Below, in pieces: positions 17,671 through 40,025 of a stretch of 64,000 bases of DNA. The first letter of the stretch is position 1; every line of letters starts with the position of its first letter. Below the pieces are notes generated by a model. That model did not search any database and was not told the DNA's origin. It saw nothing but the letters and a program-made list of their open reading frames with translations. The DNA lies in assembly GCF_030818415.1 (NCBI RefSeq), contig NZ_JAUTAE010000001.1:932501-996500 (forward strand). Reading direction: 5' to 3'. The position numbers and the translations under genes are program-made. This stretch comes from Sphingomonas sp. SORGH_AS_0950 (GTDB lineage: Bacteria; Pseudomonadota; Alphaproteobacteria; Sphingomonadales; Sphingomonadaceae).

Positions 17671-19725
<2,055 letters not shown>

Positions 19726-19775
19726 CCAGAGCGGGCTTGGCAGGGGAGGACGTTCGGCGCTATGCTGAAAGCTTG

Positions 19776-19785
19776 ACGTATACGT
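19776..19785. promoter_or_regulatory. Palindromic operator candidate ACGTATACGT
   Basis: A perfect 10-bp palindrome in TTGACGTATACGTTTC, 50 bp before the GntR/FCD gene at 19835. It shares the GTATAC core with the two sites in the 31-37 kb locus, which carries a close paralogue of this regulator. Probable autoregulatory site; inference. Confidence 0.55.
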
Positions 19786-19834
19786 TTCTTCCCAAATTAC
19801 AGGCTCCTCCCGGCCTGTCGGCACGAGAGATACC

Positions 19835-20479
19835 ATGAGCCTTGTCGTTCGCACCCTGTCGGAGCAGATCTTCACGATCGTCCGCGAACGCATCATCAGC
19901 GGCGCCCTGCCCGAAGACCAGCCGATCCGCCAGGACGCGCTGGCCAACGAGCTGGGCGTCAGCAAGATTCCGCTTCGCGAGGCGCTGGCGCGTCTGGAGC
20001 AGGAGGGGCTGCTGGTCAGCCAGGCCAATCGCGGCTTCTTCGTCCGGTCGCTGGGCGCGGGCGAGGCGGAGGAGATCTACGAGCTCCGCCTGTCGATCGA
20101 ACCCGATGCCGCCGCGCGGGCCAGCCGCGTCGCGTCGATCGCCGATCAGGCGGCGGCGCGCGAGGCGCTGACCGCGCTCGACGTGGCGGCGCGCGAGGCG
20201 CTGCACGAGGTCGCGCTCCTCAACCGCGCCTTCCACCTCGCGCTGGTCCGGCCGCTGGGCGCCGCGCTCACCTTCCAGCTGATCGAGCGGTTGCAGGTGC
20301 TGGCCGAACGCTATGTCGTCCAGCATCTGAAACCCGCCGGACGCGAGGACCGCGCGCATGAGGAGCATCACGCGCTGCTCGATGCATGGCTGGCGCGTGA
20401 CGAAGCGCGGGTCGCCGGGCTGCTGACCGATCATATTGGCGCGACGATCGTCGACCTTCGCGCCCAGCTGGCCGAATAA
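19835..20479 (+). CDS. GntR-family transcriptional regulator, FadR-like (FCD)
   Basis: 214 aa. N-terminal winged helix: LSEQIFTIVRERIISGAL, IRQDALANELGVSKIPLREA, LARLEQEGLLVSQANRGFFV. C-terminal all-helical FCD domain: EIYELRLSIEPDAAARA, NRAFHLALVRPLG, EEHHALLDAWLARDEARVAGLL, whose Asp and His residues usually bind a metal and a carboxylate effector. The DNA-binding half is almost the same as that of the regulator at 30286. No adjacent metabolic gene obviously belongs to it; nadE precedes it and NDH-2 is convergent. Confidence 0.9.
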   Translation: MSLVVRTLSEQIFTIVRERIISGALPEDQPIRQDALANELGVSKIPLREALARLEQEGLLVSQANRGFFVRSLGAGEAEEIYELRLSIEPDAAARASRVASIADQAAAREALTALDVAAREALHEVALLNRAFHLALVRPLGAALTFQLIERLQVLAERYVVQHLKPAGREDRAHEEHHALLDAWLARDEARVAGLLTDHIGATIVDLRAQLAE

Positions 20480-20482
20480 ACG

Positions 20483-21772
20483 CTATCCCGAACCCCGCAC
20501 CACGGGCGTCGTGATGATGCGCGCGCCCCGGCGATAGGTCAGATAGCGCCAGAGCCATTGCAGGCTGACGCGGATGCGCTGCGCGAAACTGACCAGCAGC
20601 ACGACATGGACGATCGCCCATAGCATCCAGGCGGGATAGCCCTTCAACCGATAGCGGCCGAAATCGAAGATCGCGGCGTGTCGCCCGATGATGGCCGCAT
20701 TGCCGCGATTGTGGAAGCGAAAGGGCGGCGCGGACCGGCCCCGGGTCAACAGGTCGCGCAAAGCCTTGCCCAGATAGTCGCCCTGTTGCTGCGCCACCTG
20801 CGCCAGTCCCGGCAGCGGCTTGCCCGCCTCGTCCGGACAGGCAGCGACATCGCCCAGCGCATAGACACCCTCCAGCCCCTCGACGCTCAGGTCGGGTTTT
20901 ACCGCGACCCGACCGCCCGGCCCCGGCTTCACCCCCAGCAGCGCCGCCGCTCCCGTCGGCGCGACGCCCGCCCCCCACAGGACGGTGCGCGCCGGGATGA
21001 AGCGGCCGCCCGCGGTCAGCCCTTCCTCGGTGATCGTCTCGACCGGCATGTTCGTCATGATCTCGACGCCCAGCCGCCCCAGCGCCCGCTCGGCATAATC
21101 GGCCAGCGAATCGGGAAAGGCCGCCAGGATGCGCGGACCCGCCTCGACCAGGATGATCTTCGCCGCCTCGGGCCGGATGCGCCGGAAGTCCGAGGTCAGC
21201 GTATAGCGCGCCAGCTCGGCGACCGAGCCCGCCAGCTCCACCCCGGTCGGGCCGCCGCCGACGATCACGAAGGTCATCAGCGCCTCGCGATCTGCCGCAC
21301 CGTCGCGCTCCGCCTCCTCGAACGCGCCCAGCACGCGCGAGCGGATCAGCCGCGCCTCCTCGATCGACTTGCAGGCGGGCGCGACGCTGCGCCATTCGTC
21401 ATGCCCGAAATAGCTGCTGGTCGATCCGGTGGCGACGACCAGCCGGTCATAGGACAGCGTCTCGCCGGTCGACAGGCCGATCCGGCGCGCCCCGGTGTCG
21501 ATCTGCGCGACCTCGCCCAGCACGACGCGGATATTGGGAAACCGGCCGAGGACATGGCGGATCGGCTCGGCCACATCCGCCGGGGACAGCGCGGCGGTCG
21601 CGACCTGATAGAGCAGCGGCACGAACAGATGATAGTTGTTCCGGTCGACCACCGTCACCCGCACCGGTGCGCGGGCCAGCCGCTTGGCCACCGCCAGCCC
21701 GCCAAACCCGGCGCCGATGATGACGACATGGGGCCAGGCGGGATCGACGGCGTGGCCTTCGGGCCCGCTCAT
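20483..21772 (-). CDS. Type II NADH:quinone oxidoreductase (NDH-2)
   Basis: 429 aa flavoprotein. FAD-binding Rossmann motif VVIIGAGFGGLAVAKRL (about 16-32), second dinucleotide motif FVIVGGGPTGVELAGSVAEL (NADH, about 167), and GVYALGDVAACPDE (FAD ribityl contact). The quinone-site-type segment AQVAQQQGDYLGKAL is present. The C-terminal amphipathic membrane anchor is WMLWAIVHVVLLVSFAQRIRVS. It oxidises NADH and reduces ubiquinone without proton pumping. It is 10 nt downstream of the MDR oxidoreductase gene on the same strand and probably cotranscribed. Confidence 0.9.
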   Translation of the reverse strand: MSGPEGHAVDPAWPHVVIIGAGFGGLAVAKRLARAPVRVTVVDRNNYHLFVPLLYQVATAALSPADVAEPIRHVLGRFPNIRVVLGEVAQIDTGARRIGLSTGETLSYDRLVVATGSTSSYFGHDEWRSVAPACKSIEEARLIRSRVLGAFEEAERDGAADREALMTFVIVGGGPTGVELAGSVAELARYTLTSDFRRIRPEAAKIILVEAGPRILAAFPDSLADYAERALGRLGVEIMTNMPVETITEEGLTAGGRFIPARTVLWGAGVAPTGAAALLGVKPGPGGRVAVKPDLSVEGLEGVYALGDVAACPDEAGKPLPGLAQVAQQQGDYLGKALRDLLTRGRSAPPFRFHNRGNAAIIGRHAAIFDFGRYRLKGYPAWMLWAIVHVVLLVSFAQRIRVSLQWLWRYLTYRRGARIITTPVVRGSG

Positions 21773-26543: not shown

Positions 26544-28883
26544 ATGCTCAATATCGTCGGATGTATCACCAAAGACCATGATCCCTGGCTGGTCGGACTG
26601 GCCGCCGGGATCTGCGTCCTGGGATTGTCCGCGCTCTTCCTCCTGCACGCCCGGTCGGAGGAATGCGTCGAGGGTCGCCGTCGCAGCTGGCTGGCCTTTG
26701 CCGCGATCACCGCGGGGATCGGCATCTGGGCGACGCATTTCCTGGCCATGCTCGCCTATCGGGGGCCCTTGCCGCTGGGCTTTGACCTGTCGCTGACCGT
26801 CGTTTCGATCGGGACTCCGATCGCGGGCATCTGGCTCGCGCTGACCTTCATCGCCCGGCGGCGGGAGACCGGGATGCTCGTGATCGCCGCCACGATCATG
26901 GCCGCCAGCATCGCCGCGATGCATTTCGTCGGCATGAGCGCGCTGATCGTGCCCGCCCGCATCCTGTACCGGCCATGGGGCGTCACGCAGGCGATGCTGG
27001 GCGCGACGGCCTTCCTCTCGCTCGCGCTGATTGCCCATATCCGGCTGCGCGGGATGACGCGCGCGGTCCTGCCGATCCTGGCGGGCGCGATGGGGGTCGT
27101 GATGCTGCATTTCGGGGCGATGGCGGCGACGACGCTCCTGCCCGGCGGGGTGGTGGTCGATCCGACCCTCGAACCGCTCCAGCCGCACGGCCTGGCCCGC
27201 GCCGTGCTGGGGGCGACCGGCCTGATCGTCGTGATGATGATCGGCGCGGCCATCCTCGACCGGCGACTGACCGACCTGCACGGCCTGACCCAGGCGACCC
27301 GCGAGGGGATCGCGATCCTGCTGAACGGCCGTATCGTCGAGACCAATGCCCGGCTCGCCGCGATGCTGGGGGTCGAGCCGCAGGCGTTGATCGGCTCCAC
27401 CCCCGGGGACTGGCTGGAAACCATGGACAGCGTGCCGCTGAGCCTGACGCACGATCACCCGGTCGAGACGCGCCCCTGCCACGCCTCGATGGAACGCTAT
27501 CTGGAGGTCGCCTGTCACGAGATCGAATATCGCGGACGACGATCGACCGTGATGGCGGTGCGCGACCTGACCGAGCAGCGGCGGGCGCAGCGCCAGATCG
27601 AATATATGGCGGTCCATGATCCGCTGACCGGATTGCCCAATCGCGCCTATTTCGCCCAGGCGCTGGAGGGGGCCATCGCACAGGCCGACCAGAAGGGCCC
27701 CTTCGCGCTGCTCGCGCTCGATCTCGATCGGTTCAAGGCGGTCAACGATCTGTTCGGCCATGCGGCGGGGGACATGATCCTGTGTCGCGTCGCCCGGATC
27801 CTGACCGGCGTGGTCGACGAGGCGGCGGTGGTCGCACGGGTCGGCGGCGACGAGTTCCTGATCCTCCAGCGCGGGGTCGACGATCCCGACCGGGTCCACA
27901 AGCTCGTCGCGACGATCCTGGGTGCCTTTGCCACCGAAATGGACCTGAGCCGCGATCCAACGGCGGTCGGGGTCAGCATCGGCGTGTCGCTGTTCCCGCA
28001 GGATGCTGCCGACGCCGATGGGCTTCGTCACAATGCCGATGTCGCGCTGTACCGCGCCAAGACGAGCGGACGCGGCGCGGCGTCCTTCTTCGACCAGGAC
28101 ATGGACCATGCGGTCCGCCATCGCCGCGCGCTCGAACATGACCTGCGCCATGCCCTGCTGCGCGACCAGATGCGGCTGGTCTATCAGCCGCTGGTCTCGA
28201 CCGAGGGCGCGAGCGTCATCGGTTATGAGGCGCTGCTTCGCTGGCAGCATCCCGAGCGCGGCGAGATCGTCCCCGACGAGTTCGTGCCCATCGCCGAGGA
28301 TACGGGCATCATCCTGCAACTCGGCGAATGGGTGCTGGGCGAGGCCTGCCGCGCCGCCGCCGCCTGGCCCGAGCCGATGACGCTGGCGGTCAACGTCTCC
28401 CCCATCCAGTTCCAGCTCCCCAACCTGGCCGAGATCGTCGCCAAGGCGCTGGCCGAAAGCGGCTTTCCCGCGCGTCGGCTGGAGCTGGAGATCACCGAAA
28501 ACGTCCTGCTCCACGACCGGGAGGGCACGCTGCGGACGCTGCACCGGCTGAAGGCCATGGGGGTCGGGATCGTCATGGACGATTTCGGCACCGGCTACAG
28601 CTCGCTCAGCAACCTCCAGTGCTTTCCGTTCGACAAGATCAAGATCGACCGCAGCTTCATCTCCGGCGTCACCGATGACGAGGCCGCGCGGTCGATCGTC
28701 CGCGCGATCGTCGGGCTGGGCCAGAGCCTGAACCTCCCGGTGGTGGCCGAAGGAGTGGAGACGGCCGAACAGCATCGCATGGTGCTGGAGGAGGGATGCC
28801 CCCAGGCCCAGGGTTATCTGTTCGGCCGCCCCGGCCGCCTGCCCGCTTATCCCGCCGCCAGCGCGCTCCGCCGCCGACCATAG
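26544..28883 (+). CDS. MHYT-PAS-GGDEF-EAL cyclic-di-GMP signalling protein
   Basis: 779 aa from ATG 26544 (MLNIVGCITKDHDPWLVGLA); an in-frame ATG at 26481 is possible, and neither has a clear SD. The N-terminal MHYT sensor has seven predicted helices with motif copies ATHFLAML (63-70), AMHFVGM (125-131) and MLHFGAM (187-193), which may bind a metal and sense a gas. A short PAS-like segment (about 250-340) precedes GGDEF (VARVGGDEFLIL, residues about 434-438, intact) and EAL (GYEALLRWQ at about 561, DDFGTGYSSL, KIKIDRSF, EGVET, intact). Both synthesis and hydrolysis of c-di-GMP are possible. Its 3' end overlaps the convergent permease gene by 37 bp. Confidence 0.93.
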   Translation: MLNIVGCITKDHDPWLVGLAAGICVLGLSALFLLHARSEECVEGRRRSWLAFAAITAGIGIWATHFLAMLAYRGPLPLGFDLSLTVVSIGTPIAGIWLALTFIARRRETGMLVIAATIMAASIAAMHFVGMSALIVPARILYRPWGVTQAMLGATAFLSLALIAHIRLRGMTRAVLPILAGAMGVVMLHFGAMAATTLLPGGVVVDPTLEPLQPHGLARAVLGATGLIVVMMIGAAILDRRLTDLHGLTQATREGIAILLNGRIVETNARLAAMLGVEPQALIGSTPGDWLETMDSVPLSLTHDHPVETRPCHASMERYLEVACHEIEYRGRRSTVMAVRDLTEQRRAQRQIEYMAVHDPLTGLPNRAYFAQALEGAIAQADQKGPFALLALDLDRFKAVNDLFGHAAGDMILCRVARILTGVVDEAAVVARVGGDEFLILQRGVDDPDRVHKLVATILGAFATEMDLSRDPTAVGVSIGVSLFPQDAADADGLRHNADVALYRAKTSGRGAASFFDQDMDHAVRHRRALEHDLRHALLRDQMRLVYQPLVSTEGASVIGYEALLRWQHPERGEIVPDEFVPIAEDTGIILQLGEWVLGEACRAAAAWPEPMTLAVNVSPIQFQLPNLAEIVAKALAESGFPARRLELEITENVLLHDREGTLRTLHRLKAMGVGIVMDDFGTGYSSLSNLQCFPFDKIKIDRSFISGVTDDEAARSIVRAIVGLGQSLNLPVVAEGVETAEQHRMVLEEGCPQAQGYLFGRPGRLPAYPAASALRRRP

Positions 28884-30250
28884 ACGAAGTAGAAGGCCAG
28901 CCCGGCCAGGTTCCAGACGACGAACCGGATGATGGTCGAACTGGGCAGGCTGAACAGCAGATAGATACAGCCCAGGATGGCGAGCGTGCCGACCAGATAG
29001 GGCTGCGGGCAGCGGAACAGCCGCTTGGCGTCCGGCGCCTTGCGCCGCAGCACCATCAGGCAGGCGCCGACCGCGATGAAGGCGAGCAGCGTGCCCGCAT
29101 TGGCCAGCTCGGCGATCTCATCCAGTCGGAAGGTGCCAGCGACCAGCGCGATCGAGAGGCCGGTGACCAGCGTGATGCGGGTCGGCGCGCCGCTGCGCTT
29201 GCTGACCACGGCCAGCGACTGCGGCAACAGGCCGTCGCGTGCCATGGTGAAGAAGATGCGGCTCTGCCCGTACATCATGACCAGGATGACCGAAGGCAGC
29301 GCGATGACCGCGGCCAGCGCGATCAGATGCGCCGCCTGGGGCTGGCCCAGCGAGCGAAGGACCAGCGCCAGCGGCTCGGGCGAATTGGCGAGCTGCTGGA
29401 AGGGCATCGATCCGATCGCCGCAACGGCCACCGCCATGTAGATCAACGTGCAGACCAGCATGGAGCCGACGATACCGATGGTCAGGTCACGGCTGGGGTT
29501 CTTGGCTTCCTCGGCGGAAGTCGCGACCGCGTCGAACCCGTAAAAGGCAAAGAACACGATCGCCGCCGCCGCCATCACGCCGCGCTTGGCACCGTCCACC
29601 TCGTGCGCGGCAAAGCCATAGGGCATGAAGGGATGAAGGTTATCGCCCTGGAAGGCGGGCAGGGCAAAGGCCACGAAGATGCCCAGCGCCACCAGCTTGA
29701 TGACGACGAGGACGATATTGAGCGTCGCGCTCTCACGCGTGCCCGCGATCAGCATGCCCATCACCGACAGGGCGACGACCACCGCGGGCAGGTTCACGAT
29801 GCCGCCGCCATGCGGCCCGGACAGGAGCTCGGGCGGCAAATGTATCCCCGCCGCCTGTATCCAGCCGACCAGATAGCCACCCCAGCCGACTGCGACCGCC
29901 GAGCAGGACAGCGAATATTCCAGGATCAGGCTCCACCCCACGACCCAGGCCAGCGTCTCGCCCAAGGCGGTGTAGCTGAAGGTATAGGCGCTGCCCGCCG
30001 CCGGGATCAGCGTGGCCAGTTCGGCATAGGCGAGCGCCGCGCAGGCGCAGACCGCGCCCGCGATCGCGAAGGCCAGGATGACGGCGGGCCCCGCCCGTTC
30101 CGCGCCCACCCCGGTCAGCGTGTAGATGCCGGTGCCGACGATCGCGCCGACCCCCAGCGCGATGAGGTGCGGCCAGCTGAGCGTCTTGGCCAGCGCCTGC
30201 CCTTCCCCATGCTGGGTCGCGCTGCCCAGCGGTTTGAACGGTCCGAACAT
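28847..30250 (-). CDS. APC-superfamily amino acid permease (CAT family)
   Basis: 467 aa from ATG 30250 (an in-frame TTG lies at 30259). About 12 transmembrane helices; signatures LIALGVGAIVGTGIYTLTG (helix 1, substrate-binding GxG), FAFYGFDAVATSAEEAKNPSRD (helix 6 to loop) and MYGQSRIFFTMARDGLLP (helix 8) are typical of cationic/neutral amino acid transporters of the CAT type. It is the last gene of the run GH127-Ldh2-DUF885-DapA-like-GntR-permease, so it probably imports the amino acid the cluster degrades; hydroxyproline or a proline analogue would fit, but the sequence does not fix specificity. Confidence 0.88.
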   Translation of the reverse strand: MFGPFKPLGSATQHGEGQALAKTLSWPHLIALGVGAIVGTGIYTLTGVGAERAGPAVILAFAIAGAVCACAALAYAELATLIPAAGSAYTFSYTALGETLAWVVGWSLILEYSLSCSAVAVGWGGYLVGWIQAAGIHLPPELLSGPHGGGIVNLPAVVVALSVMGMLIAGTRESATLNIVLVVIKLVALGIFVAFALPAFQGDNLHPFMPYGFAAHEVDGAKRGVMAAAAIVFFAFYGFDAVATSAEEAKNPSRDLTIGIVGSMLVCTLIYMAVAVAAIGSMPFQQLANSPEPLALVLRSLGQPQAAHLIALAAVIALPSVILVMMYGQSRIFFTMARDGLLPQSLAVVSKRSGAPTRITLVTGLSIALVAGTFRLDEIAELANAGTLLAFIAVGACLMVLRRKAPDAKRLFRCPQPYLVGTLAILGCIYLLFSLPSSTIIRFVVWNLAGLAFYFVYGRRRSALAAG

Positions 30251-30285
30251 GTGAAGCAAAATCCCCCGCCTCGATGGTTTCCATG

Positions 30286-30996
30286 CTATCCGGCGAGTGC
30301 GAACCCGCCCTTCAGGTCCATCAGCGTGGACCGGATATGCGCGTCAAGCAATGATTGAACCCGTTCCGCGTCGCGCGCCAGAAAGGCATCGAGCTGTTCG
30401 CGGTGTTCCAGATGCGCGCGGGCATCGCGCCCGGCGGGTTGCAGATGCGCGACGACATAGCGCTCCGCCAGCACCGCCAATTGTCGGATCATGCGGATGG
30501 TGAGCGGCCGTCCGATCGGGCGGACCATCGCCATGTGGAATTGCCGGTTGGAAATGGCGACCTGCGCCAGATCGTTGGTCGCGGCGCGGTCCAGCATGTC
30601 GAACGCCGCGATCAGCCGCGTCCGGTCCTCGTCATTCGCGACCAACGCCGCGCGCGCCGCCGCCGCCGGTTCGAGGCGGCAGCGAAGCATGTAGATTTCC
30701 TCGGCCCGCGCCGCACTCAGCCGACCGACCAGATAGCCGCGATTGGCGACCCCCTGGAGCAGCCCCTCCTGCTCCAGCCGGGCGAGCGCCTCGCGCAGCG
30801 GGATCTTGCTGACCCCCAGCTCGGCGGCCAGCGCGTCCTGCCGGATCGGCCGGTCGCCCCCCAGCGTCCCGGCCACGATCCGTTCGCGGACGATGGCGAA
30901 GATCCGATCCGCCAGCGTCTGCACGACGATGACGCCCCCGCCCCGCGCTCGGCCGTCATCCGGCACCATGTCGCGGGGCGGGAGCGTCGTCGCCAT
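30286..30996 (-). CDS. GntR/FCD-family regulator of the accessory locus
   Basis: 236 aa. DNA-binding domain: LADRIFAIVRERIVAGTL, IRQDALAAELGVSKIPLREA, LARLEQEGLLQGVANRGYLV; FCD domain with EIYMLRCRLEPAAAARAALV and EHREQLDAFLARDAERVQSL. Compared with the regulator at 19835, the recognition-helix region IRQDALA-ELGVSKIPLREA is nearly identical. The ATG overlaps the stop of the DapA-family gene by 1 nt (TGATG), so it is translationally coupled to it. The candidate operators ATACCGTATAC at 31939 and 37198 probably bind this protein. It likely responds to a carboxylate intermediate. Confidence 0.92.
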   Translation of the reverse strand: MATTLPPRDMVPDDGRARGGGVIVVQTLADRIFAIVRERIVAGTLGGDRPIRQDALAAELGVSKIPLREALARLEQEGLLQGVANRGYLVGRLSAARAEEIYMLRCRLEPAAAARAALVANDEDRTRLIAAFDMLDRAATNDLAQVAISNRQFHMAMVRPIGRPLTIRMIRQLAVLAERYVVAHLQPAGRDARAHLEHREQLDAFLARDAERVQSLLDAHIRSTLMDLKGGFALAG

Positions 30997-31910
30997 CAGG
31001 CGGCCTTGCTCAGCCCGAGGGTCGGGCGGGTCGCGGCGGCCTTTTCGACCATCGCGATCACCTGGGCGCGGCGTTCGCCCTCCAGGACGTAGCGCGGCGG
31101 CAGCACGCGCTCCGAACCGCGACCCATGACCTGCTCGGCCAGCTTGATCGACTGGACCAGGTCATGCTCGGCATCGAGGTGGAGCAGCGGCATGAACCAG
31201 CGATAGATTTCCATCGCCTTGGCATGATCGCCCCGCTCGAACGCGGCGACCAGTTCGACCGACTCCTTGGGGAAGGCGTTGGTCAGGCCCGAGACCCAGC
31301 CCTGCGCCCCGAGGTACAGCCCCTCGAGCGCCACGTCGTCCAGCCCGGCGAACAGGACGTAACGATCGCCAAAGGCGTTGCGGAAGTCGGTGAAGCGACG
31401 CGTGTCGGGGGCCGATTCCTTGACCGCGACGATGTTCTTCACGTCGACCAGCGCTTCGAGCACCGTCTGGTCGATGACCGTGCGATAGGCGGGCGGGTTG
31501 TTGTAGAGCATGATCGGCAGGCCGACCTGATCCGCCACGCCCTTGAAATGGTTCACCAGTTCATGCGCCTTGGGCACATAGACCATCGGCGGCAGCAGCA
31601 TCAGGCCGTCGGCGCCGGCCTTCTCGGCGGCCTGCGCATAGCGGACCGCGCGGCGCGTGTCATATTCCGACACGCCGGTGATCACCGGCACGCGGCCGTC
31701 GACCGCCTCGACGATCGCGGTCAGCACCGTGACCTTCTCATCATAGTCGAGCGAGTTGTTCTCGCCGACCGTGCCCAGGGCGATGACGCCGGTCACGCCG
31801 TCGCGGACCAGATCGTCCACCACGCGCTGCGTGTCGGCGAGATCGATCGAAAGATCCTCCCGCACCTGGGTCGTCACCGCGGGGAATACGCCACGCCAGC
31901 CGATGCTCAC
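30996..31910 (-). CDS. Dihydrodipicolinate synthase-family lyase/deaminase (catabolic)
   Basis: 304 aa DHDPS/NAL-family class I aldolase. It has the Schiff-base Lys at about 164 (VAVKESAPDTRRF), Tyr at about 136 (IMLYNNPPAYR), and GTVGENNSL in place of the biosynthetic GTTGEAATM, so it is not a second DapA. Family members with such a signature include 2-keto-3-deoxy sugar-acid lyases and the delta1-pyrroline-4-hydroxy-2-carboxylate deaminase of hydroxyproline catabolism. Neighbours (permease, Ldh2 reductase, peptidase, arabinofuranosidase) make the last possible, and L-KDA dehydratase for arabinose is an alternative. An ATACCGTATAC site lies just upstream. Confidence 0.85.
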   Translation of the reverse strand: MSIGWRGVFPAVTTQVREDLSIDLADTQRVVDDLVRDGVTGVIALGTVGENNSLDYDEKVTVLTAIVEAVDGRVPVITGVSEYDTRRAVRYAQAAEKAGADGLMLLPPMVYVPKAHELVNHFKGVADQVGLPIMLYNNPPAYRTVIDQTVLEALVDVKNIVAVKESAPDTRRFTDFRNAFGDRYVLFAGLDDVALEGLYLGAQGWVSGLTNAFPKESVELVAAFERGDHAKAMEIYRWFMPLLHLDAEHDLVQSIKLAEQVMGRGSERVLPPRYVLEGERRAQVIAMVEKAAATRPTLGLSKAA

Positions 31911-31938
31911 AATCTGTCTTCCTGCTGTTTATATTTAG

Positions 31939-31949
31939 ATACCGTATAC
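31939..31949. promoter_or_regulatory. GntR operator candidate in the DapA-like gene promoter (ATACCGTATAC)
   Basis: ATACCGTATAC lies 29 bp upstream of the ATG at 31910, in the 74-bp gap after the DUF885 gene. The identical 11-mer is in the GH127/DUF5695 divergent region. GTATAC is the palindromic core. Confidence 0.65.
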
Positions 31950-31984
31950 TTTTTAGCAAATCGATCGTCGCAGGTCAATCGTGA

Positions 31985-33787
31985 TCATTCCTCATCGGGA
32001 TAGGGGCCCTTGCCGCCCTCCGCGATGAACTGATTGGTGCGCTGCGCGATGACGGGCAAGGGGACATAGCCCAGTTGCAGCATCGCATCGTGCCAGGCGC
32101 GGATGTTGAACTTCGGCCCCAGCGCCTTCTCCGCCTTGGCGCGCGCCTTCTGGAAGGCGAGCTGCCCCATATAATAGGACAGCGCCTGGCCCGGCCATGC
32201 GATGTAGCGGTCGACCTCGGTCTCGATCTCGTGATCCGACAGCGCGGTATTGTCGTGGAGATAGGCCTGGGCCTGTTCGCGGCTCCATCCCATGGCATGG
32301 ATGCCGGTATCGACCACCAGCCGCGCGGCGCGCCAGGCCTGATAGGACAGCATGCCGAACCGATCATAGGGCGTCTTGTAGAAGCCCATATCCTCGCCCA
32401 GCGCCTCGCAATAGAGCGCCCAGCCCTCGCCATAGGCCGACAGATAGCTATCGCGGCGGAAAGCGGGCAGATCCTTGTTCTCGGCGGCCAGCGGCATCTG
32501 GAAGGCATGGCCGGGCGCGCTTTCGTGCAGCGTCAGCGCGGGCAGCGCATAGAGCGAACGCGACGGCAGGTCATAGGTGTTGACCAGATAGATACCCGGA
32601 CCGCCGCGCCCGGCGGTATAGAAGGGTGCGAGATCGGCGGGCACCGGCTTGATCGCGAACCGGCTGCGCGGCAGGCGGCCGAACCAGTCGGCGGCGATGC
32701 CGTCGAAGCTCTTGGCGAACCAGGCCGCGCGGTCGAGCAGTTCCTGCGGCGTCTTGGCATAGAATTGCGGGTCGGTGCGCAGGAAGGTCAGGAAGGCGGG
32801 GAAATCGCCCCTGAACTTCACCTCGCGCATCACATCGTCCATCCGCGCGCGGATGCGCTTGATCTCCGACAGGCCGATGGCATGGATCTGTTCGGGGGTC
32901 ATGTCGGCGGTCACATATTCGCGGATCTTCGACCGGTAATAGGCCTTGCCGTCGGGCAGGTCATAGGCGGCCGTGCTGGCCTGCCCGCCCGGCATATAGT
33001 CGTTGCGCAGGAAGGCGAGCAGCTTGACATGCGCGGGCAGGACGTCGTCGCGGATCGCCGCCTTCGCCTCGGCCCGCAGCGCCGCGACGGTGGCGGGCGC
33101 CATGGTGGCGGGCATGGTGCGGAACGGCGCGTAGAAGGGCTGGTCCTCGCCCAAGCCGGCATCGACCACCTGCGCGACACCGATATCGCGCCCCTTCAGC
33201 GTGACGCGCGGCGGGGTGAAGCCCCGCGCCAGTCCGGCGCGCATATTGCCGATCTGCTGGTCGTAATAGCGCGGCATCTGATGGAGCATCGCGATATAAT
33301 CGCGATACTGGCTTTCCTTGGTGAAGCTGCCCCGCGCCCAGCTGGCGAGATTGCCCCAGAAGCTGGTATCGGCGTTCAGCGGCCTCTCATATTCCCGAAA
33401 GCGCTGGGCGGCGAGCAGGGCATCGATCTGGCCGCGATAGACCATGTAATCGGTGCGAACATCCGGCGACAAGGCATTGATATCGATGCCGTCCAGCGCC
33501 TTGGCGGTTGCCTCCCACCGCGCGAGCCGTGCCGCCTGCGCTACCGGGCCGACATCGGGCAACTGGCGCGATCCGGCGCTGCCGCTATCCTCGTCGGCGG
33601 CGTTCTGGCTGACCCGCCATTTATACTCCGCCTCGGACAGGGCACGGAAGCGGGCGTCCGCCGCACGAGTCGCCGTCGCCGCTTTGCCACGCGGCTGCGC
33701 CGTCGGCGCCTTCGCCTCCGCGGCCCCCGGTACGCAGAGAAGGGCCATTCCCGCCAGAAGCGGTGCGATCCGGTTCGTCATGCTCAT
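31985..33787 (-). CDS. Secreted DUF885 zinc metallopeptidase-like protein
   Basis: 600 aa. Signal peptide MSMTNRIAPLLAGMALLCVPGAAEAK (ATG 33787 or 33781). DUF885 family: HESAPGH (about residue 421), an HExxxGH variant of the zinc motif, followed by SAYGEGWALYCEALGEDMGF, where the second Glu is the third ligand or catalytic residue. DUF885 proteins are gluzincin-like peptidases of poorly known specificity, some tested members being dipeptidases or carboxypeptidases. It is probably periplasmic. It sits 12 nt after the Ldh2 gene and may release amino acids from peptides made during glycoprotein breakdown. Confidence 0.85.
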   Translation of the reverse strand: MSMTNRIAPLLAGMALLCVPGAAEAKAPTAQPRGKAATATRAADARFRALSEAEYKWRVSQNAADEDSGSAGSRQLPDVGPVAQAARLARWEATAKALDGIDINALSPDVRTDYMVYRGQIDALLAAQRFREYERPLNADTSFWGNLASWARGSFTKESQYRDYIAMLHQMPRYYDQQIGNMRAGLARGFTPPRVTLKGRDIGVAQVVDAGLGEDQPFYAPFRTMPATMAPATVAALRAEAKAAIRDDVLPAHVKLLAFLRNDYMPGGQASTAAYDLPDGKAYYRSKIREYVTADMTPEQIHAIGLSEIKRIRARMDDVMREVKFRGDFPAFLTFLRTDPQFYAKTPQELLDRAAWFAKSFDGIAADWFGRLPRSRFAIKPVPADLAPFYTAGRGGPGIYLVNTYDLPSRSLYALPALTLHESAPGHAFQMPLAAENKDLPAFRRDSYLSAYGEGWALYCEALGEDMGFYKTPYDRFGMLSYQAWRAARLVVDTGIHAMGWSREQAQAYLHDNTALSDHEIETEVDRYIAWPGQALSYYMGQLAFQKARAKAEKALGPKFNIRAWHDAMLQLGYVPLPVIAQRTNQFIAEGGKGPYPDEE

Positions 33788-33799
33788 ACCCTTCCTGCT

Positions 33800-34810
33800 T
33801 CAACCATTCAGTGCCGTGACGTCGCGGTGCAGATCGGCGGGGATCACCACGCCCTCCGCCAGCGACACCGCCCGCGCCGCATAGCGCCGGGCCGAGGGCA
33901 GGCGCGCGCCCTGCCCCGTGATCGCGGCGAACATCGCCTCCGCCCGCGCCTGATGTTCGGGCAGAAGATCGCCCAAAAACCCCTTGGGATCGATCGCGAT
34001 GATCAGTTCGCCGCCCAGCGGCGATCCGCCGCGTCCGGCATCGATGTCGATCGACTCGCGGCTGGTCATGTCGCCGATCAGCGGCCCGGCGAGCAGTTCG
34101 ACCATCGCCGCCAGCGCCGATCCCTTATGCCCGCCAAAGGTCCGCATCGCGCCCGACAGGATCGCGGCGGGATCGGTGGTGGGACGTCCCTCCGCATCGA
34201 CGCCCCAGTCGTCGGGCACCGCCTTGCCCGCGCGGCGGTGAAGCTCGATCTCGCCGCGCGCGACCATGCTGGTGGCGAAGTCGAAGACGAAGGGCGGGCC
34301 ATCGGGGCGCGGCCAGCCGAACGCGATCGGATTGGTCCCGAACACCGGCTCGGCCCCGCCCGACGGCGCGACCCAGGCATGGCTGGGGGTGAAGGCCAGC
34401 GCGACCAGACCCGCCTCGGCCAGTTCCTCGACCTCGGGCCAGAGCGCGGCGAAATGCACGACATTGTTGAGCGCCAGCGCGGCGATACCGTTCCTGCGCG
34501 CCTTTTCGATCAGCGCGGGCTTGCCGGTCTGGAACGCCAGCTGGGCAAAGCCGCCGCCGCCATCGACGCGGACCAGCGCATGCGCGGGATGCGACAGGAC
34601 GGGTTCGGCATCGGGCACCACCACGCCCTTGTTGATGCTGGAGACGGCGACCAGCAGGCGATAAATGCCATGCGACGCGCATCCGTCGCGCTCGCCCGCG
34701 ACCATCGTCTCGGCCACCGCCTCGGCATGGGCGGGGGCGAGCCCCGCGCCCAGCAGCTTGGCCCGCGCGAGCGACCGCAACTCCGCCAGCGTCATGCGGA
34801 TGCCGGTCAC
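33800..34810 (-). CDS. Ldh2-family NAD(P)H-dependent oxidoreductase
   Basis: 336 aa. The family includes malate/L-lactate dehydrogenase (Ldh2), ureidoglycolate dehydrogenase and delta1-piperideine/pyrroline-2-carboxylate reductase (DpkA). Motifs: ERDGCASHGIYRLL (catalytic His), DGGGGFAQLA, NNVVHFAALWPEVEELAEAG, FGTNPIAFGWPRPD, VFDFATSMVARGEI, and TFGGHKGSALAAMVELLAG (cofactor-binding). In Hyp or D-proline catabolism DpkA-like enzymes reduce delta1-pyrroline-2-carboxylate to L-proline; this is the preferred but unproved role here. Its ATG overlaps the GH127 stop by 4 nt. Confidence 0.87.
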   Translation of the reverse strand: MTGIRMTLAELRSLARAKLLGAGLAPAHAEAVAETMVAGERDGCASHGIYRLLVAVSSINKGVVVPDAEPVLSHPAHALVRVDGGGGFAQLAFQTGKPALIEKARRNGIAALALNNVVHFAALWPEVEELAEAGLVALAFTPSHAWVAPSGGAEPVFGTNPIAFGWPRPDGPPFVFDFATSMVARGEIELHRRAGKAVPDDWGVDAEGRPTTDPAAILSGAMRTFGGHKGSALAAMVELLAGPLIGDMTSRESIDIDAGRGGSPLGGELIIAIDPKGFLGDLLPEHQARAEAMFAAITGQGARLPSARRYAARAVSLAEGVVIPADLHRDVTALNG

Positions 34811-37182
34811 GCGGTCACGCCCTTCCTCGCGGTGAACAGGCGCATGCCGAAGATCGGCCCCGCCGTGCTGCGATCATGCGGGACGATGCGGATGCGCACG
34901 CTCTTCTTGCCCGCCGTCACCCCTAGCGGAAGCGGATATTCGACGTCGAAGAACTGACCCGGCTTGTCGCTTTCCAGATGCTGGGTGGCGACCTTCACAT
35001 TGTCGACCAGAATGTCGAAGTCGCGCTTGCGCTCGTCGCCCCAATAGGTCGCCTGAAGCACCAGCGGGCCGGGACGCACCGCCATGCTGAACTCGATATA
35101 GCCCCCCGACCGCGCATCGCGACCCTGCCGCCCGCGATAGGAGACGGGATAGGAAATCTCCGAGGTAAGTCCATGATCGCGCTCGGGTTGCATCTCGCCC
35201 AGATGCATCACGTCGACCGAGCGCGCGGCGATGTCGCGGGCGCGTTCCTGGTCGGCGAGGAAGGCTGCCTCCTCCGCCTTCCATCCCGCTTCGGTGAAGC
35301 GCTTGAAATAGACCGCGCTGCGGCGATCATATTGGCTGAAGAAGGGGACGAAGCTGAGATCCGCCGGGCGAAACACGCCGCGCGTCGCATAGCGCGCCGG
35401 TGCGCCCTCGGCCGGGGTGAAGGCGGCCAGCGGATGCGCGCCGACCATGGCGGGGTCGGGCGAGTTCCACGGCGTCTCGACCGACCCCAGATCGGCGGCC
35501 ATCACCATCGGCCCGCGCACCACCGCGACCACGCTGTCGTCGCCCGGCGTCGGTTCGACCCGCAATTCCAGCGGCAGGCGGATGGCGACGCTGTCGCCCG
35601 CCTTCCACCGCCGCTCGACCACCGCATAGCCGCGGTCGAACACCGGCTCGACCGGCTGACCGTTGACCTCCACCACCGCCTGGCCCTGAGTCCAGCCGGG
35701 CACCCGCAGCGCCACCGGAAAGCGTCCGGCGCGATCGAGACGGGTGAAGCGCAACGTCGCCTGCCCCTCCATCGGATAGGCGGTGTCGAGCGTGACGGTC
35801 GCCCCGCGCCGCTCCCACCGCGCCTCGGCCGGGATATAGAGGTTCACGAGCAGCGCGTCCCCGCCCTGCCAGAAGATCGACTCGCCATGCTTGGCATGCG
35901 ACTCCATCCCCGAACCGACGCAGCACCAGAAGGCGTCGTCCTTGGGCGTCGAGAATTCACGCGCCATGCCGGTCATCAGCGGCGTCATATAGGTGAAGCC
36001 GCCATTCTCCGGATTCTGCGCCGCCATGACATGGTTCAGATGCGCGCGTTCATAGAAGTCGAACAGCGCCGCCTGGGGCTGCCAGCCATAGAGGTGCCGG
36101 GTCAGCTTGAGCATGTTGTAGGTGTTGCAATGCTCGCACGTCTGCTCGGTGATGTGCCGCGCGATCGTGTCGGGCTCCGAGAAATACTCACGGTCCGCAT
36201 TGCCGCCGATGACATAGCTGTGATGCTGCGTCACCGTGTCCCAGAAGAAGCGCGCGCCCGCCGCCGGTGCGGGATTGCCGGTGATCTCATGGATTCGCGC
36301 CAGGCCGATCAGCTTGGGCACCTGCGTATTGGCGTGGAAATTGGCGAGCTGGTCCTTCCCCGCCACCAGCGGGTCGAGCACCTTGCGGTCATAGATGCGC
36401 TCGGCCAGCGCCAGCCACTGGCGGTCGCCGGTCCGCTGATAGAGTTCGGCGAAGCTCTCGTTCAGCCCGCCATATTCGCAGCCCAGCACTTCCTGCATCC
36501 GCGCATCGTCCAGCGCGGCGAAGACGCGGGCGAAATAGCCGCCCAGCCCGACCGCGACCGACAGCGCCTGCGCATTGCCCCAGCCGCCATGGATGTCGAG
36601 CAGCCCCGCGAACAGCTTGTGAACCGTGTAGAGCGGCGACCAGGACCCGTTGAGGTCGAACCCGCCCGACTTGATCTTGCCCGCCATGATCTCGGGGAAG
36701 ATCTCCTCGCCATCGACGATCGTGCCGTCGGGGCGCTTGCGCCCCAGCCCGCCGACATAGCCGTTGCCGCGCTTGGCCTGGGCCTCGGCCAGTTCGGCGA
36801 CGATATAGTCGGCGCGCCGCCGCATCTCGGTATCGCCGGTCTGCTGCCAGGTCAGCACCAGCGCCGACATGTAATGGCCCAGCGTATGGCCCGCGATCGT
36901 ATCGCTTTCCCAGCCGCCATAGATCTCCGCCTTGGGCTTCAGACCGGCATAGAGGCGGAAATTGTGGAGCAGCCGGTCGGGATCGAGCCGATAGAGATAG
37001 CGCCGGTTGGTCTCGACCGCGGTCGCATAGATGGACGGGCGCAGGCGAACGGCGTTCAGCGGCAGGGGTTCGGCCTTGGCGGGAAGTCGCGAAGCCGGTG
37101 CCGCGATCGCGCGGGGCGCCGCACCGATCAAGGCGGCGGTGGCCGCTCCCCGCATCCATTCGCGCCTGCTTGCCCGTACCAT
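34807..37182 (-). CDS. GH127 (DUF1680) beta-L-arabinofuranosidase-like protein, Tat-exported
   Basis: 791 aa from ATG 37182 with GGAGAG 4 nt upstream. The N-terminus SRREWMRGAATAALIGAAP is a twin-arginine signal. The (alpha/alpha)6 barrel, about 45-450, carries GHTLGHYMSAL, the EHCNTYNMLKLTRHLY segment (Glu 350, Cys 352) and FWCCVGSGMESHAKHG (Cys 420/421). In the Bifidobacterium enzyme HypBA1 the equivalent Glu/Cys/Cys/Cys bind zinc and one Cys of the WCC pair is the nucleophile, so the active site looks intact. Beta-sandwich domains follow. HypBA1 cleaves the beta-L-arabinofuranosyl linkages of hydroxyproline-rich glycoproteins. It is first in its operon. Confidence 0.9.
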   Translation of the reverse strand: MVRASRREWMRGAATAALIGAAPRAIAAPASRLPAKAEPLPLNAVRLRPSIYATAVETNRRYLYRLDPDRLLHNFRLYAGLKPKAEIYGGWESDTIAGHTLGHYMSALVLTWQQTGDTEMRRRADYIVAELAEAQAKRGNGYVGGLGRKRPDGTIVDGEEIFPEIMAGKIKSGGFDLNGSWSPLYTVHKLFAGLLDIHGGWGNAQALSVAVGLGGYFARVFAALDDARMQEVLGCEYGGLNESFAELYQRTGDRQWLALAERIYDRKVLDPLVAGKDQLANFHANTQVPKLIGLARIHEITGNPAPAAGARFFWDTVTQHHSYVIGGNADREYFSEPDTIARHITEQTCEHCNTYNMLKLTRHLYGWQPQAALFDFYERAHLNHVMAAQNPENGGFTYMTPLMTGMAREFSTPKDDAFWCCVGSGMESHAKHGESIFWQGGDALLVNLYIPAEARWERRGATVTLDTAYPMEGQATLRFTRLDRAGRFPVALRVPGWTQGQAVVEVNGQPVEPVFDRGYAVVERRWKAGDSVAIRLPLELRVEPTPGDDSVVAVVRGPMVMAADLGSVETPWNSPDPAMVGAHPLAAFTPAEGAPARYATRGVFRPADLSFVPFFSQYDRRSAVYFKRFTEAGWKAEEAAFLADQERARDIAARSVDVMHLGEMQPERDHGLTSEISYPVSYRGRQGRDARSGGYIEFSMAVRPGPLVLQATYWGDERKRDFDILVDNVKVATQHLESDKPGQFFDVEYPLPLGVTAGKKSVRIRIVPHDRSTAGPIFGMRLFTARKGVTA

Positions 37183-37197
37183 CTTGCTCTCCACAAA

Positions 37198-37208
37198 ATA
37201 CCGTATAC
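37198..37208. promoter_or_regulatory. GntR operator candidate in the GH127/DUF5695 divergent promoter (ATACCGTATAC)
   Basis: Exact 11-bp match to the site at 31939, here followed by CGTTAGCG. It is 16 bp from the GH127 start codon and about 75 bp from the DUF5695 start, so one protein could control both directions. Confidence 0.65.
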
Positions 37209-37283
37209 CGTTAGCGTTCGTTGGACAGAGGGTCAATCGCGTTGCCATAACCGGCGAAGCGACACCCGATGAAAGGGTTCTCG

Positions 37284-40025
37284 ATGCGTCGTTCTCCGTT
37301 CCGCCTGTTCCCCGTGACACTGGCCCTGCTGTCCGTCGCGGCGGTTCCGGCCCAGAAGGCCGTGCCCCGCGCGACCGGGCCCAAGGCGGCCGCACCCTCC
37401 GCCCCGGCGATGCGCGTCGGCGCCTTTCGCCTGCGACTCGATCCGGCCAGCCAGACCGCGCGCAGTCTGTCGCCGCTCGCCGATCCCGCTTTCGACTTCC
37501 TGCCGGTCGGTCGGTCGCGGGAGCGGAGCGGCAATGGGTACAACCATCTGGGCGACCTGCACCTGCGGGTCCGTACCGGCACCGGGCCGTGGCAGGATTT
37601 TTCCTCCTCGAAGCAGCGCGTGCCGGTCCGCGCCCTGCCCGCGAAGGGCGACGTGCTGGCGGCGGCGGACATGACCGCGACGATGGGTCCCGGACTGCCG
37701 CTGCGCATCGTGCGCGAATGGACGAACGCGGCGGGCACGCCGGGGCTGGCCTTCACGCTGACCAACACCAGCGGCCAGACGGTGGAGATTGGCGGACTGG
37801 GCCTGCCGATGGTGTTCGACAACATCATCTCCGACCGCACGCTCGAACAGGCGCATACCCAGGCGAGCTTCGCCGATCCCTATATCGGGCGCGACGCGGG
37901 CTATGTGCAGGTGACGCGGCTGAACGGCGCGGGCCCCGCGCTGCTGGTCCTGCCCCAGGCCGCGACGCCGCTGGAGGCCTATGTCCCGATCCCCACGGTC
38001 CGCGAGACCGGCGGCAAGGCGGTGATCGCCGAGGCGAGCCCACGCGCCCAGACGTCGGAAGGCTTTTACGACTGGACGGTCGCCAGCGCCGCCTATGCAC
38101 AGACCGACTGGACCAAGGCGGGCGCGCCGTGGAACGCGCCGACCAGCATCCGCCTCGCCCCCGGCGAGAGCCGCCGGATCGGCCTTCGCTTCGTCGCCGC
38201 GCCCAGCATCCGGGGGATCGAGCCGACCCTGATCGCGCAGAAGCGGCCGGTCGTCGTCGGCGTGCCGGGCTATGTCGTGCCGAGCGACCTCGACGCATCG
38301 CTGTTCGTCCGGGCCCCCTCGCCCATCACCGGGATCGAGAGCTATCCGGCGGGCGCGCTGGAGGTGACGCGGGCGGCGGGCAAGCCCGGCTGGGAGAAGC
38401 TGTCGGTGCGCGGGCGGCAATGGGGCCGTGCGCGGCTGTCGCTGACCTATGCCGACGGCCAGGTGCAGACCATTCCCTATTTCGTCACCAAGCCGCTCGA
38501 GCGGACCATGGCCGATCTCGGCCACTTCGCGACGACGCGGCAATGGTTCGAAGGCAAGGACGATCCCTTCGGCCGGTCGCCCGCCATCCTGACCTATGAC
38601 CGCGAGGCGGATCGCATCGTCACCGCCGATCCGCGCGTGTGGATTTCGGGGATGAGCGACGAGGGCGGCGCGGGCAGCTGGGTCGCCGCCGTCATGAAGC
38701 AGCTCGACAATCCCGACGCGACCGAGCTCGCCCGGATCGAGGAGCTGGTCGACAAGACGGTGGTCGGCCGCCTCCAGGTCGCCGACGGCCCGCATGCGGG
38801 CGGCGTGAAGAAGAGCCTGTTCTATTACGACCCGGCCGCCTTCCCCTCGCTCTATCAACCCGCCAAGGACTGGCAGAGCTGGACCTCGTGGAAGAAGGAT
38901 CAGGCGGACGATCTGGGTCGCGCCTATAATTACCCGCATGTCGCGGCGGGGCATTGGGCGCTCTACCGGATCGCGCGCAACCATCCGGGGATGACGCGTG
39001 TGCATGACTGGCGCTGGTATCTCGACCATGCCTATCGCACCATCACCGCGATGATGCGCGACGCGCCGCATTATGCGCAATACGGCCTGATGGAAGGGGA
39101 CGTCTTCGTCGACATCCTGACCGATCTGAAGCGCGAGGGCTGGACCGCCCAGGCCGCCGAGGTGGAGGCGCTGATGAAGGGTCGCGCGGACCATTGGCGG
39201 ACGCTGCGCTATCCCTTTGGCAGCGAGATGGCGTGGGACTCGACCGGCCAGGCCGAGGTCTATGCCTGGATGCGCTATTTCGGCTATGGCCCGCAGGCCG
39301 ACGTCACGCGCGAGGTCATATTGGGCTATGACCCGTCCATCCCCAGCTGGGGCTATAACGGCAATGCCCGGCGCTATTGGGATTTCCTCTATGGCGGCAA
39401 ATATCCCCGGCTGGAGCGGCAGATCCATCATTACGGATCGACGCTGAACGCCATCCCGCTGTTCGATTCGTTCCGGCGCAACCCGGCCGACCTGCATCTG
39501 CTGCGCGTCGCCTATGGCGGGTTGATGGGCGGGATCACCAATATCGGCCAGGACGGATCCTCCTCCGCCGCCTTCCACAGCTGGCCCGACCGGATGGAGT
39601 GGGATCCGTATAGCGGGGATTATGGCATGGGCTTTTTCGGCCATGCCTATGCCGCCGCCACCTATGTGGTGAACGATCCCCGGCTGGGCTGGCTGTCCTA
39701 TGGCGGCAATCTGTCAGAGGCGGACGGGACGATCCGCGTCGTGCCGAAAGACGGCGCGCGCAGCCGGTTGTTCGTCGCGCCCGCCGGGCTCTGGCTGACG
39801 CTGGAGGCGGGCAAGATCGCCGAGGTGCGCTACACCCCCGCCACCGGCACGGTGCGGCTGATCCTCGATCCCGCCAGGGCCGACACGCCACAGGCCCGGC
39901 TGTTCGTCGAGACCACGACGACCGGCGGCCGCGCCTATACGCCCGATCGGGGGGTGATGGAGCGCGGCGGCTATTCGGTGCCGTTGGCCGCCGGGCCGAC
40001 CGAGGTCGTCCTCTCGCCCAGATAA
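37284..40025 (+). CDS. Large secreted DUF5695-type protein of unknown function
   Basis: 913 aa from ATG 37284, chosen because AAAGGG lies 6 nt before it; an ATG at 37269 is in frame. The signal peptide is MRRSPFRLFPVTLALLSVAAVPAQ. An N-terminal beta-sandwich region (about 35-370; GLPLRIVREWTNAAGTPGLA, LTLTNTSG-like) precedes a helical region (about 390-750) with Trp/Tyr-rich segments such as WTSWKKDQADDLGRAYNYPH, AHWALYRIARNH, FGSEMAWDSTGQAEVYAWMR and GISSMGGAAAF-like loops. The layout resembles (alpha/alpha)6-barrel glycosidases or lyases, and conserved Trp-Asp-Ser and Asp/Glu residues could be catalytic. I match it to DUF5695 from memory. It is transcribed away from GH127 and shares its control region. 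Confidence 0.7.
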   Translation: MRRSPFRLFPVTLALLSVAAVPAQKAVPRATGPKAAAPSAPAMRVGAFRLRLDPASQTARSLSPLADPAFDFLPVGRSRERSGNGYNHLGDLHLRVRTGTGPWQDFSSSKQRVPVRALPAKGDVLAAADMTATMGPGLPLRIVREWTNAAGTPGLAFTLTNTSGQTVEIGGLGLPMVFDNIISDRTLEQAHTQASFADPYIGRDAGYVQVTRLNGAGPALLVLPQAATPLEAYVPIPTVRETGGKAVIAEASPRAQTSEGFYDWTVASAAYAQTDWTKAGAPWNAPTSIRLAPGESRRIGLRFVAAPSIRGIEPTLIAQKRPVVVGVPGYVVPSDLDASLFVRAPSPITGIESYPAGALEVTRAAGKPGWEKLSVRGRQWGRARLSLTYADGQVQTIPYFVTKPLERTMADLGHFATTRQWFEGKDDPFGRSPAILTYDREADRIVTADPRVWISGMSDEGGAGSWVAAVMKQLDNPDATELARIEELVDKTVVGRLQVADGPHAGGVKKSLFYYDPAAFPSLYQPAKDWQSWTSWKKDQADDLGRAYNYPHVAAGHWALYRIARNHPGMTRVHDWRWYLDHAYRTITAMMRDAPHYAQYGLMEGDVFVDILTDLKREGWTAQAAEVEALMKGRADHWRTLRYPFGSEMAWDSTGQAEVYAWMRYFGYGPQADVTREVILGYDPSIPSWGYNGNARRYWDFLYGGKYPRLERQIHHYGSTLNAIPLFDSFRRNPADLHLLRVAYGGLMGGITNIGQDGSSSAAFHSWPDRMEWDPYSGDYGMGFFGHAYAAATYVVNDPRLGWLSYGGNLSEADGTIRVVPKDGARSRLFVAPAGLWLTLEAGKIAEVRYTPATGTVRLILDPARADTPQARLFVETTTTGGRAYTPDRGVMERGGYSVPLAAGPTEVVLSPR

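Follow-up and report, generated by a model that had tools for sequence, protein, structure and literature searches.

A probable regulon for the use of hydroxyproline-rich plant glycoproteins, split between distant loci in Sphingomonas sp. SORGH_AS_0950

Background

Among the major glycoproteins of plant cell walls are the extensins and arabinogalactan proteins, and the cross-linking of extensin contributes to plant defence. Here we describe a gene cluster in a 64,000-nucleotide stretch of the Sphingomonas sp. SORGH_AS_0950 genome (contig NZ_JAUTAE010000001.1, positions 932,501 to 996,500; hereafter the window), which, we suggest with good confidence, belongs to a regulon for the use of hydroxyproline-rich plant glycoproteins that is split in this clade and lies only partly within the window.

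The bacterial trans-4-hydroxyproline pathway (PMC4113996) runs through an epimerase, an oxidase, a DHDPS-type deaminase and a semialdehyde dehydrogenase; the genes discussed below share with it an epimerase, a DAO-family oxidase, a DHDPS-family enzyme and an Ldh2 (MLD2) reductase. In Bifidobacterium longum, beta-L-arabinofuranosides are taken off hydroxyproline-rich glycoproteins by HypBA1 and HypBA2 (PMC7263609), similar to what we propose here. Our genes also resemble the XeHypAA/XeHypBA2/XeHypBA1 system of Xanthomonas euvesicatoria, in which GH43 and GH146-type enzymes, with a prolyl peptidase close by, are directed at such glycoproteins (PMC6085000). A close conceptual parallel is the HypR regulon of Streptomyces coelicolor, where a GntR regulator governs hydroxyproline catabolism together with a putative collagenase (PMC6608401). 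The figure legend of a Novosphingobium root-exudate study names a hydroxyproline epimerase and deaminase (PMC8386446). Full-text searches of an open-access library gave no account in which the catabolism of hydroxyproline is combined with glycosidases for plant glycoproteins.

Results

The seven genes named in the original prediction are all open reading frames of the Pfam families assigned to them. Six lie on the minus strand: an APC amino-acid permease (28847..30250; the ATG at 30250 agrees with relatives, and the frame opens at TTG 30259), a GntR/FCD regulator, the presumed reader of the operator described below (30286..30996), a DapA-like gene of the DHDPS family (30996..31910; PF00701, 192 bits), a secreted DUF885 protein with a HESAPGH motif, proposed to be a metallopeptidase (31985..33787), an Ldh2-family reductase (33800..34810; Pfam Ldh_2), and a predicted GH146-like beta-L-arabinofuranosidase with a GH127-type catalytic domain in Pfam (34807..37182). 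Divergent from these, on the plus strand, is a secreted DUF5695 protein with a probable PL27-like fold (37269..40025). Both predicted gene overlaps are present, a 4-nt GTGA joining the glycosidase and Ldh2 genes and a TGATG joining the DapA-like and GntR genes. The glycosidase frame extends upstream to a GTG at 37395; its twin-arginine signal, also predicted earlier and recognised by eye like all signal peptides here, comes after ATG 37182, which we take as the real start.

The epimerase and the D-hydroxyproline oxidase are absent from the window, and a search for them in the rest of the genome found an epimerase and a D-amino-acid oxidase side by side, with the same predicted operator as the window genes. 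The single real proline-racemase-family gene, at 3.18 Mb on contig C1 and 2.2 Mb from the window, is a 4-hydroxyproline epimerase by NCBIfam (544.6 bits against a cut-off of 376), the translation of which carries MCGHG and SPCGTG with the two catalytic Cys; it is adjoined by an oxidase of the DAO family and an M24 peptidase of the prolidase type. There is also a GH43 gene on contig C2; since its nearest solved relatives are xylosidase/arabinofuranosidases, it is no more than a candidate HypAA.

The motif CGTATAC was seen in intergenic DNA at both the window and the epimerase locus. CGTATACS by itself is not significant, as 10 of 100 shuffles reach its count; ATACCGTATAC, allowing one mismatch at most, gave 2 matches against 0.10 expected. 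All 71 of the relatives L061-L131, a set that excludes the window's clade, have a palindromic GTATAC within 140 bp 5' of the DapA-like gene, and all were used to derive a 20-bp operator model (53 distinct sites) with the consensus GAATATCGTATACGATATTC. The model was run over 224 kb of the genome's own DNA, made up of partly overlapping pieces chosen for other reasons and not the whole genome, and gave five sites of at least 13 bits, against about 0.1 expected, each just 5' of a predicted member. Two are in the window, at 31937..31956 upstream of the DapA-like gene (AGATACCGTATACTTTTTAG, 21.8 bits) and at 37196..37215 in the divergent GH146/DUF5695 promoter (AAATACCGTATACCGTTAGC, 17.7 bits); the others lie between the epimerase and oxidase genes (24.6 bits), 5' of the M24 gene (14.4 bits) and 5' of the GH43 gene on C2 (18.9 bits). 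In 30 shuffled versions of the window the mean was 0.03 sites per 64 kb, and no version had more than 1. The genes that the window lacks are thus present in the genome, and the predicted operator common to the window genes, the epimerase/oxidase pair, M24 and GH43 makes all of them look like parts of a single regulon.

In L061-L131, a labelled gene starts within 350 bp downstream of 158 of the 165 sites. The sites precede all 71 DapA-like genes (the training set), DAAO in 50 of 51 cases, the two kinds of TonB receptor in 19 of 19 and 12 of 14, DUF5695 in 13 of 13, and GH146 in 26 of 53, where many starts are cut off; none was found 5' of GH27 or GH43 in these loci, or in the more distant epimerase loci L040, L046 and L048.

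When 84,980 species genomes were scanned by the DapA-like protein alone, 534 loci were obtained, and the counts that follow are from the best 80, a sphingomonad-heavy and mutually related set in which several loci are cut by contig ends. The epimerase directly follows the DapA-like gene in 70 of them. Of the ten without it, one is L124 and nine come from the window's own clade, that of S. paucimobilis; the nine clade genomes each hold a single epimerase, 96-99% identical to our own, on another contig. We therefore conclude that the two halves of the locus became separated in the S. paucimobilis clade. Ldh2 and DUF885 are each found in 65 loci, GH146 in 62, APC in 60, GntR in 58, DAAO in 51, M24 in 43, GH43 in 33, DUF5695 in 22, GH27 in 20, the two kinds of TonB receptor in 19 and 14, and an S9 peptidase in 8. 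Epimerase and GH146 occur together in 53 loci, and in 31 the epimerase, DapA-like, DAAO, M24, GntR, APC, GH146, Ldh2 and DUF885 genes are all present. Retention of the gene set in so many relatives means that the cluster arrangement is not due to chance. A genome of the same genus (G056, DapA-like protein 65% identical) has the epimerase, DAAO, M24, GH146, DUF5695, Ldh2, DapA-like, APC and GntR genes within ~15 kb. Outside the window's class, ~21 kb of G317 contain GntR, oxidase, DapA-like, epimerase, aldehyde dehydrogenase (directly 3' of the epimerase), GH2 (a beta-galactosidase), DUF5695, TonB receptor, DUF885, GH146 and M24 genes, with five operator sites. The sphingomonad records are largely from leaves, roots and rhizospheres.

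Some of these records deserve separate mention. Near 18440 of the G317 locus (L203), a 30.0-bit operator stands 5' of a gene resembling a Na+/H+-antiporter-type transporter, perhaps the hydroxyproline importer there. An 880-kb S. parapaucimobilis record called a plasmid (L134) has the appearance of a chromid or of a piece of a chromosome, because its locus adjoins aroB, shikimate kinase, accA and panB, and a genome titled Microvirga (L068) has a sphingomonad-like locus and is probably misnamed.

Co-occurrence was assessed in 99 genomes of the order (one of which, G067, is the same record as L131), counting DapA-like proteins of at least 49% identity and epimerases with E values of 1e-100 or better; three of 17 DapA-like matches were dropped as weaker (G039, 44%; G058, 34%; G018, 37%). 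The DapA-like gene is present in 14 genomes and the epimerase in 15, both being present in 14 (Fisher p 4e-16, with no correction for relatedness) and adjacent in 12 of these; G021 has the epimerase and lacks the DapA-like gene. At the same E value GH146 was found in three genomes: our own, G056 and G005 (a 51% paralogue). As GH146 occurs in just 3 of 99 genomes, against 14 for the DapA-like/epimerase pair, hydroxyproline use is the older core to which the glycoprotein module was added.

Alignment to the solved DapA 2yxg agrees with the earlier observation that the DapA-like protein has GTVGEN at the position of DapA's GTTGE: it is without the second Thr, keeps the Lys and the Tyr and has Ala at the Arg position. 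The Lys corresponds to the Schiff-base lysine. A canonical DapA identity was rejected on account of GTVGEN, the Ala and a score of 182.5 bits against the NCBIfam dapA cut-off of 206.15; the genome has two DHDPS genes, the cluster copy and a canonical dapA (window about 1002-1883). In a DHDPS tree, the protein is part of a 34-row clade (98/99) distant from canonical DapA, 26 rows of which directly adjoin an epimerase. The remaining rows comprise the window, L052, L039 (whose locus also contains an epimerase), L049, L124, the second L123 copy, L161 and L133 of R. etli. Sister to this clade, with support of 97/87, stands the S. meliloti DHDPS that adjoins HypE, presumably HypD; its branch is very long and its identity 30%. 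The phylogenetic comparison proposed in the original prediction thus came out in favour of an epimerase-linked clade far from canonical DapA, in a tree that contained no characterised sugar-acid lyase. Some genomes (L123, G101) have two DapA-like copies, the second being 66-68% identical, and on the R. etli plasmid (L133) a 74% identical gene sits between fucosidase and rhamnosidase gene sets.

Could the DapA-like protein instead act on sugar acids in the breakdown of arabinose, as an aldolase or a dehydratase? It might even do both jobs, since both routes converge on alpha-ketoglutarate semialdehyde; the R. etli homologue adjoins sugar genes, and the DHDPS family includes enzymes of this sort, although their models score the DapA-like protein more weakly. 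However, the DapA-like gene is accompanied by the epimerase in all 14 genomes, and a separate pentose-oxidising set at C1:2.22 Mb (L191) has its own FAH-family dehydratase. This set further comprises an SDR above the D-xylose dehydrogenase cut-off, a lactonase, an IlvD/Edd dehydratase, an aldehyde dehydrogenase, an aldose epimerase and an MFS transporter, and would handle the sugar half by taking L-arabinose; an L-arabinose isomerase (AraA) was not found in the genome. With such a set located elsewhere and with the linkage to the epimerase, sugar-acid catabolism, previously named as the main alternative, is weakened, and we consider it very improbable. The pentose set carries its own GntR/FCD regulator.

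Among solved references, the glycosidase scored 455 bits with 5opj (which we take to be the enzyme BT0349) and 156 with 8k7x on the GH146 side, against 91 with 4qjy and 51 with 3wkw (HypBA1) on the GH127 side. The GH127 label given to it before was therefore replaced by GH146-like, an assignment by comparison scores. The claim of an intact active site stands: both TCEHC and WCC are preserved, in agreement with the Cys3-Glu zinc site that has been reported for GH127/GH146 (PMC10850190). According to the same source, arabinofuranose linked to hydroxyproline is released by two characterised GH146 enzymes, XeHypBA1 and Bll4HypBA1, Bll3HypBA1 is beta-1,3-specific and BT0349 acts on beta-1,2. A second GH146-type gene of our genome (L197, C1:2868706-2870310), 41% identical, has no operator site of 9 bits or more, and L195 and L196, two further paralogue loci, are without any that reaches 13 bits.

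The fold of DUF5695 probably resembles that of the arabinogalactan-protein lyase PL27, with GH76, mutarotases and GH94 as lower-Z folds; its identity to the PL27 rhamnose-glucuronate lyase BACCELL_00875 is 16%, with no sequence-profile match. A profile search of solved structures with DUF5695 returned nothing credible, and the literature found on DUF5695 and DUF885 gives no function beyond a clan assignment. The substrate could be arabinogalactan protein and not extensin: DUF5695 would remove rhamnose-glucuronate caps like PL27, GH146 would remove terminal beta-1,3-arabinofuranose, galactosidases would follow, and backbone hydroxyproline would be burned. The low identity to PL27 and the missing profile match speak against this, and the GH27, GH43 and GH146 genes in at least 20 relatives suit extensin equally, whose repeats carry alpha-galactose on Ser and arabinofuranose chains (Hyp-Ara4) on hydroxyproline (PMC5371791). 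We regard this alternative as rather less likely than not.

The nearest solved and characterised relative of the Ldh2 protein is the delta1-piperideine-2-carboxylate reductase 1wtj (243 bits; the next scored 135 bits), which places it among the predicted pyrroline/piperideine-2-carboxylate reductases. A 55% identical copy is present in the S. meliloti hydroxyproline region, and hydroxyproline gene neighbourhoods include MLD2-family pyrroline-2-carboxylate reductases (PMC4113996). For the aldehyde dehydrogenases, 11 of 13 Aldedh places were scanned, one as a partial sequence, and none scored above the GucD or dioxovalerate NCBIfam cut-offs. The aldehyde dehydrogenase of the G317 locus is below the ketoglutarate-semialdehyde cut-off, GucD being its best model.

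Elsewhere in the window, GTATAC occurs a third time (besides the sites 5' of the DapA-like gene and in the GH146/DUF5695 promoter), within a weak operator-like site at 19771..19790 (9.3 bits). It lies 5' of a second GntR/FCD regulator (19835..20479, plus strand; 60% identical to the cluster GntR), which may share the operator or compete for it; the membership of both is uncertain. Another weak site, at 51585-51604 (10.9 bits), is isolated. The nearby flavoprotein at 20483-21772 was rejected as a candidate for a second oxidase, since by its sequence, judged by our own reading, it resembles a type-2 NADH dehydrogenase.

Discussion

The proposal that these genes together deglycosylate, hydrolyse, import and catabolise hydroxyproline-rich glycoprotein held up with corrections, the two halves forming one locus in relatives and having a common operator. 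The case for a regulon is made by sequence: the genes themselves, the conserved neighbourhood with epimerase, oxidase and M24, and a palindromic operator predicted at three genomic places. We envisage that GH146 and GH43 (with GH27 in some relatives) would strip arabinose and other sugars outside the cytoplasm, that DUF885 and M24 (and S9 in some relatives) would cleave the peptide, and that the APC permease would import hydroxyproline or a small peptide. The epimerase would then convert trans-4-hydroxy-L-proline to cis-4-hydroxy-D-proline, the oxidase would yield pyrroline-4-hydroxy-2-carboxylate, and the DapA-like enzyme would deaminate this to alpha-ketoglutarate semialdehyde, to be oxidised to alpha-ketoglutarate by a dehydrogenase. 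Ldh2 would most likely reduce pyrroline-2-carboxylate back to L-proline. Via the operator, the GntR/FCD protein would repress or activate the whole set, the signal presumably being hydroxyproline or a product. As to the substrate, extensin specifically and arabinogalactan protein stand about even.

Several observations weigh against this reading. No ketoglutarate-semialdehyde dehydrogenase cut-off was reached at the 11 of 13 Aldedh places scanned, and the dehydrogenase loci scanned are without an operator site of at least 9 bits, so the operator names no semialdehyde dehydrogenase. The S. meliloti DHDPS beside the epimerase is only 30% identical to the DapA-like protein, and the R. etli plasmid with its 74% identical gene is without an epimerase. 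The G317 locus may reflect horizontal transfer and not be independent evidence, because its DapA-like protein groups within the sphingomonad clade. Gene order differs among the related loci. Further to that, a close GH146 is lacking in 12 of the 14 genomes of the order that hold both the epimerase and the DapA-like gene, and GH146 is absent from the available stretch in 17 of 70 epimerase-bearing loci; the glycosidase module is therefore optional, and hydroxyproline use is able to stand alone.

This last point would also fit two independent functions in one neighbourhood, namely scavenging of free hydroxyproline and degradation of pectic arabinan or rhamnogalacturonan side chains by GH146, and the nearest solved GH146, BT0349, comes from a locus for rhamnogalacturonan-I (PMC10850190). 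However, the predicted operator is common to GH146/DUF5695, GH43 and the hydroxyproline genes even when these are far apart, the genes co-localise in relatives despite their varied order, and the three more distant GH146 paralogue loci are without an operator site. We find two separate functions unlikely and retain a single regulon for glycoprotein use.

More tentatively, and with the balance of our own judgement leaning against the full combination, one GntR/FCD regulator and its operator ATATCGTATACGATAT may link glycan removal, proteolysis and hydroxyproline combustion (from extensin and/or arabinogalactan protein), with DUF5695 forming a new family of carbohydrate-active enzymes, either lyases or hydrolases, that act on hydroxyproline-linked glycans in place of the GH121 or PL27 enzymes used elsewhere. 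A locus that both takes the arabinose and burns the hydroxyproline would explain how sphingomonads use the protein part of the wall, provide testable functions for DUF5695 and DUF885, and make the operator able to reveal further members by genome scan.

Compared with the bacterial trans-4-hydroxyproline pathway (PMC4113996), glycosidases and peptidases would be joined here under one operator, and the DHDPS lineage is 30% identical to that of S. meliloti. The B. longum system, as described, takes the sugar only, using GH127 and GH121 with an ABC transporter (PMC7263609). That of X. euvesicatoria, as described, has GH121 and is without hydroxyproline catabolism (PMC6085000), whereas in our genome no GH121 was found and DUF5695 and DUF885 are present. 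HypR of S. coelicolor has a different binding motif (CTNTGCMATGTCAC); as described, an animal-type substrate is suggested for its regulon and no glycosidases are mentioned (PMC6608401). Known bacterial systems either harvest the arabinose, as in bifidobacteria and Xanthomonas, or degrade free hydroxyproline, as in rhizobia, pseudomonads and Streptomyces, while the locus described here, if our reading is true, would do both.
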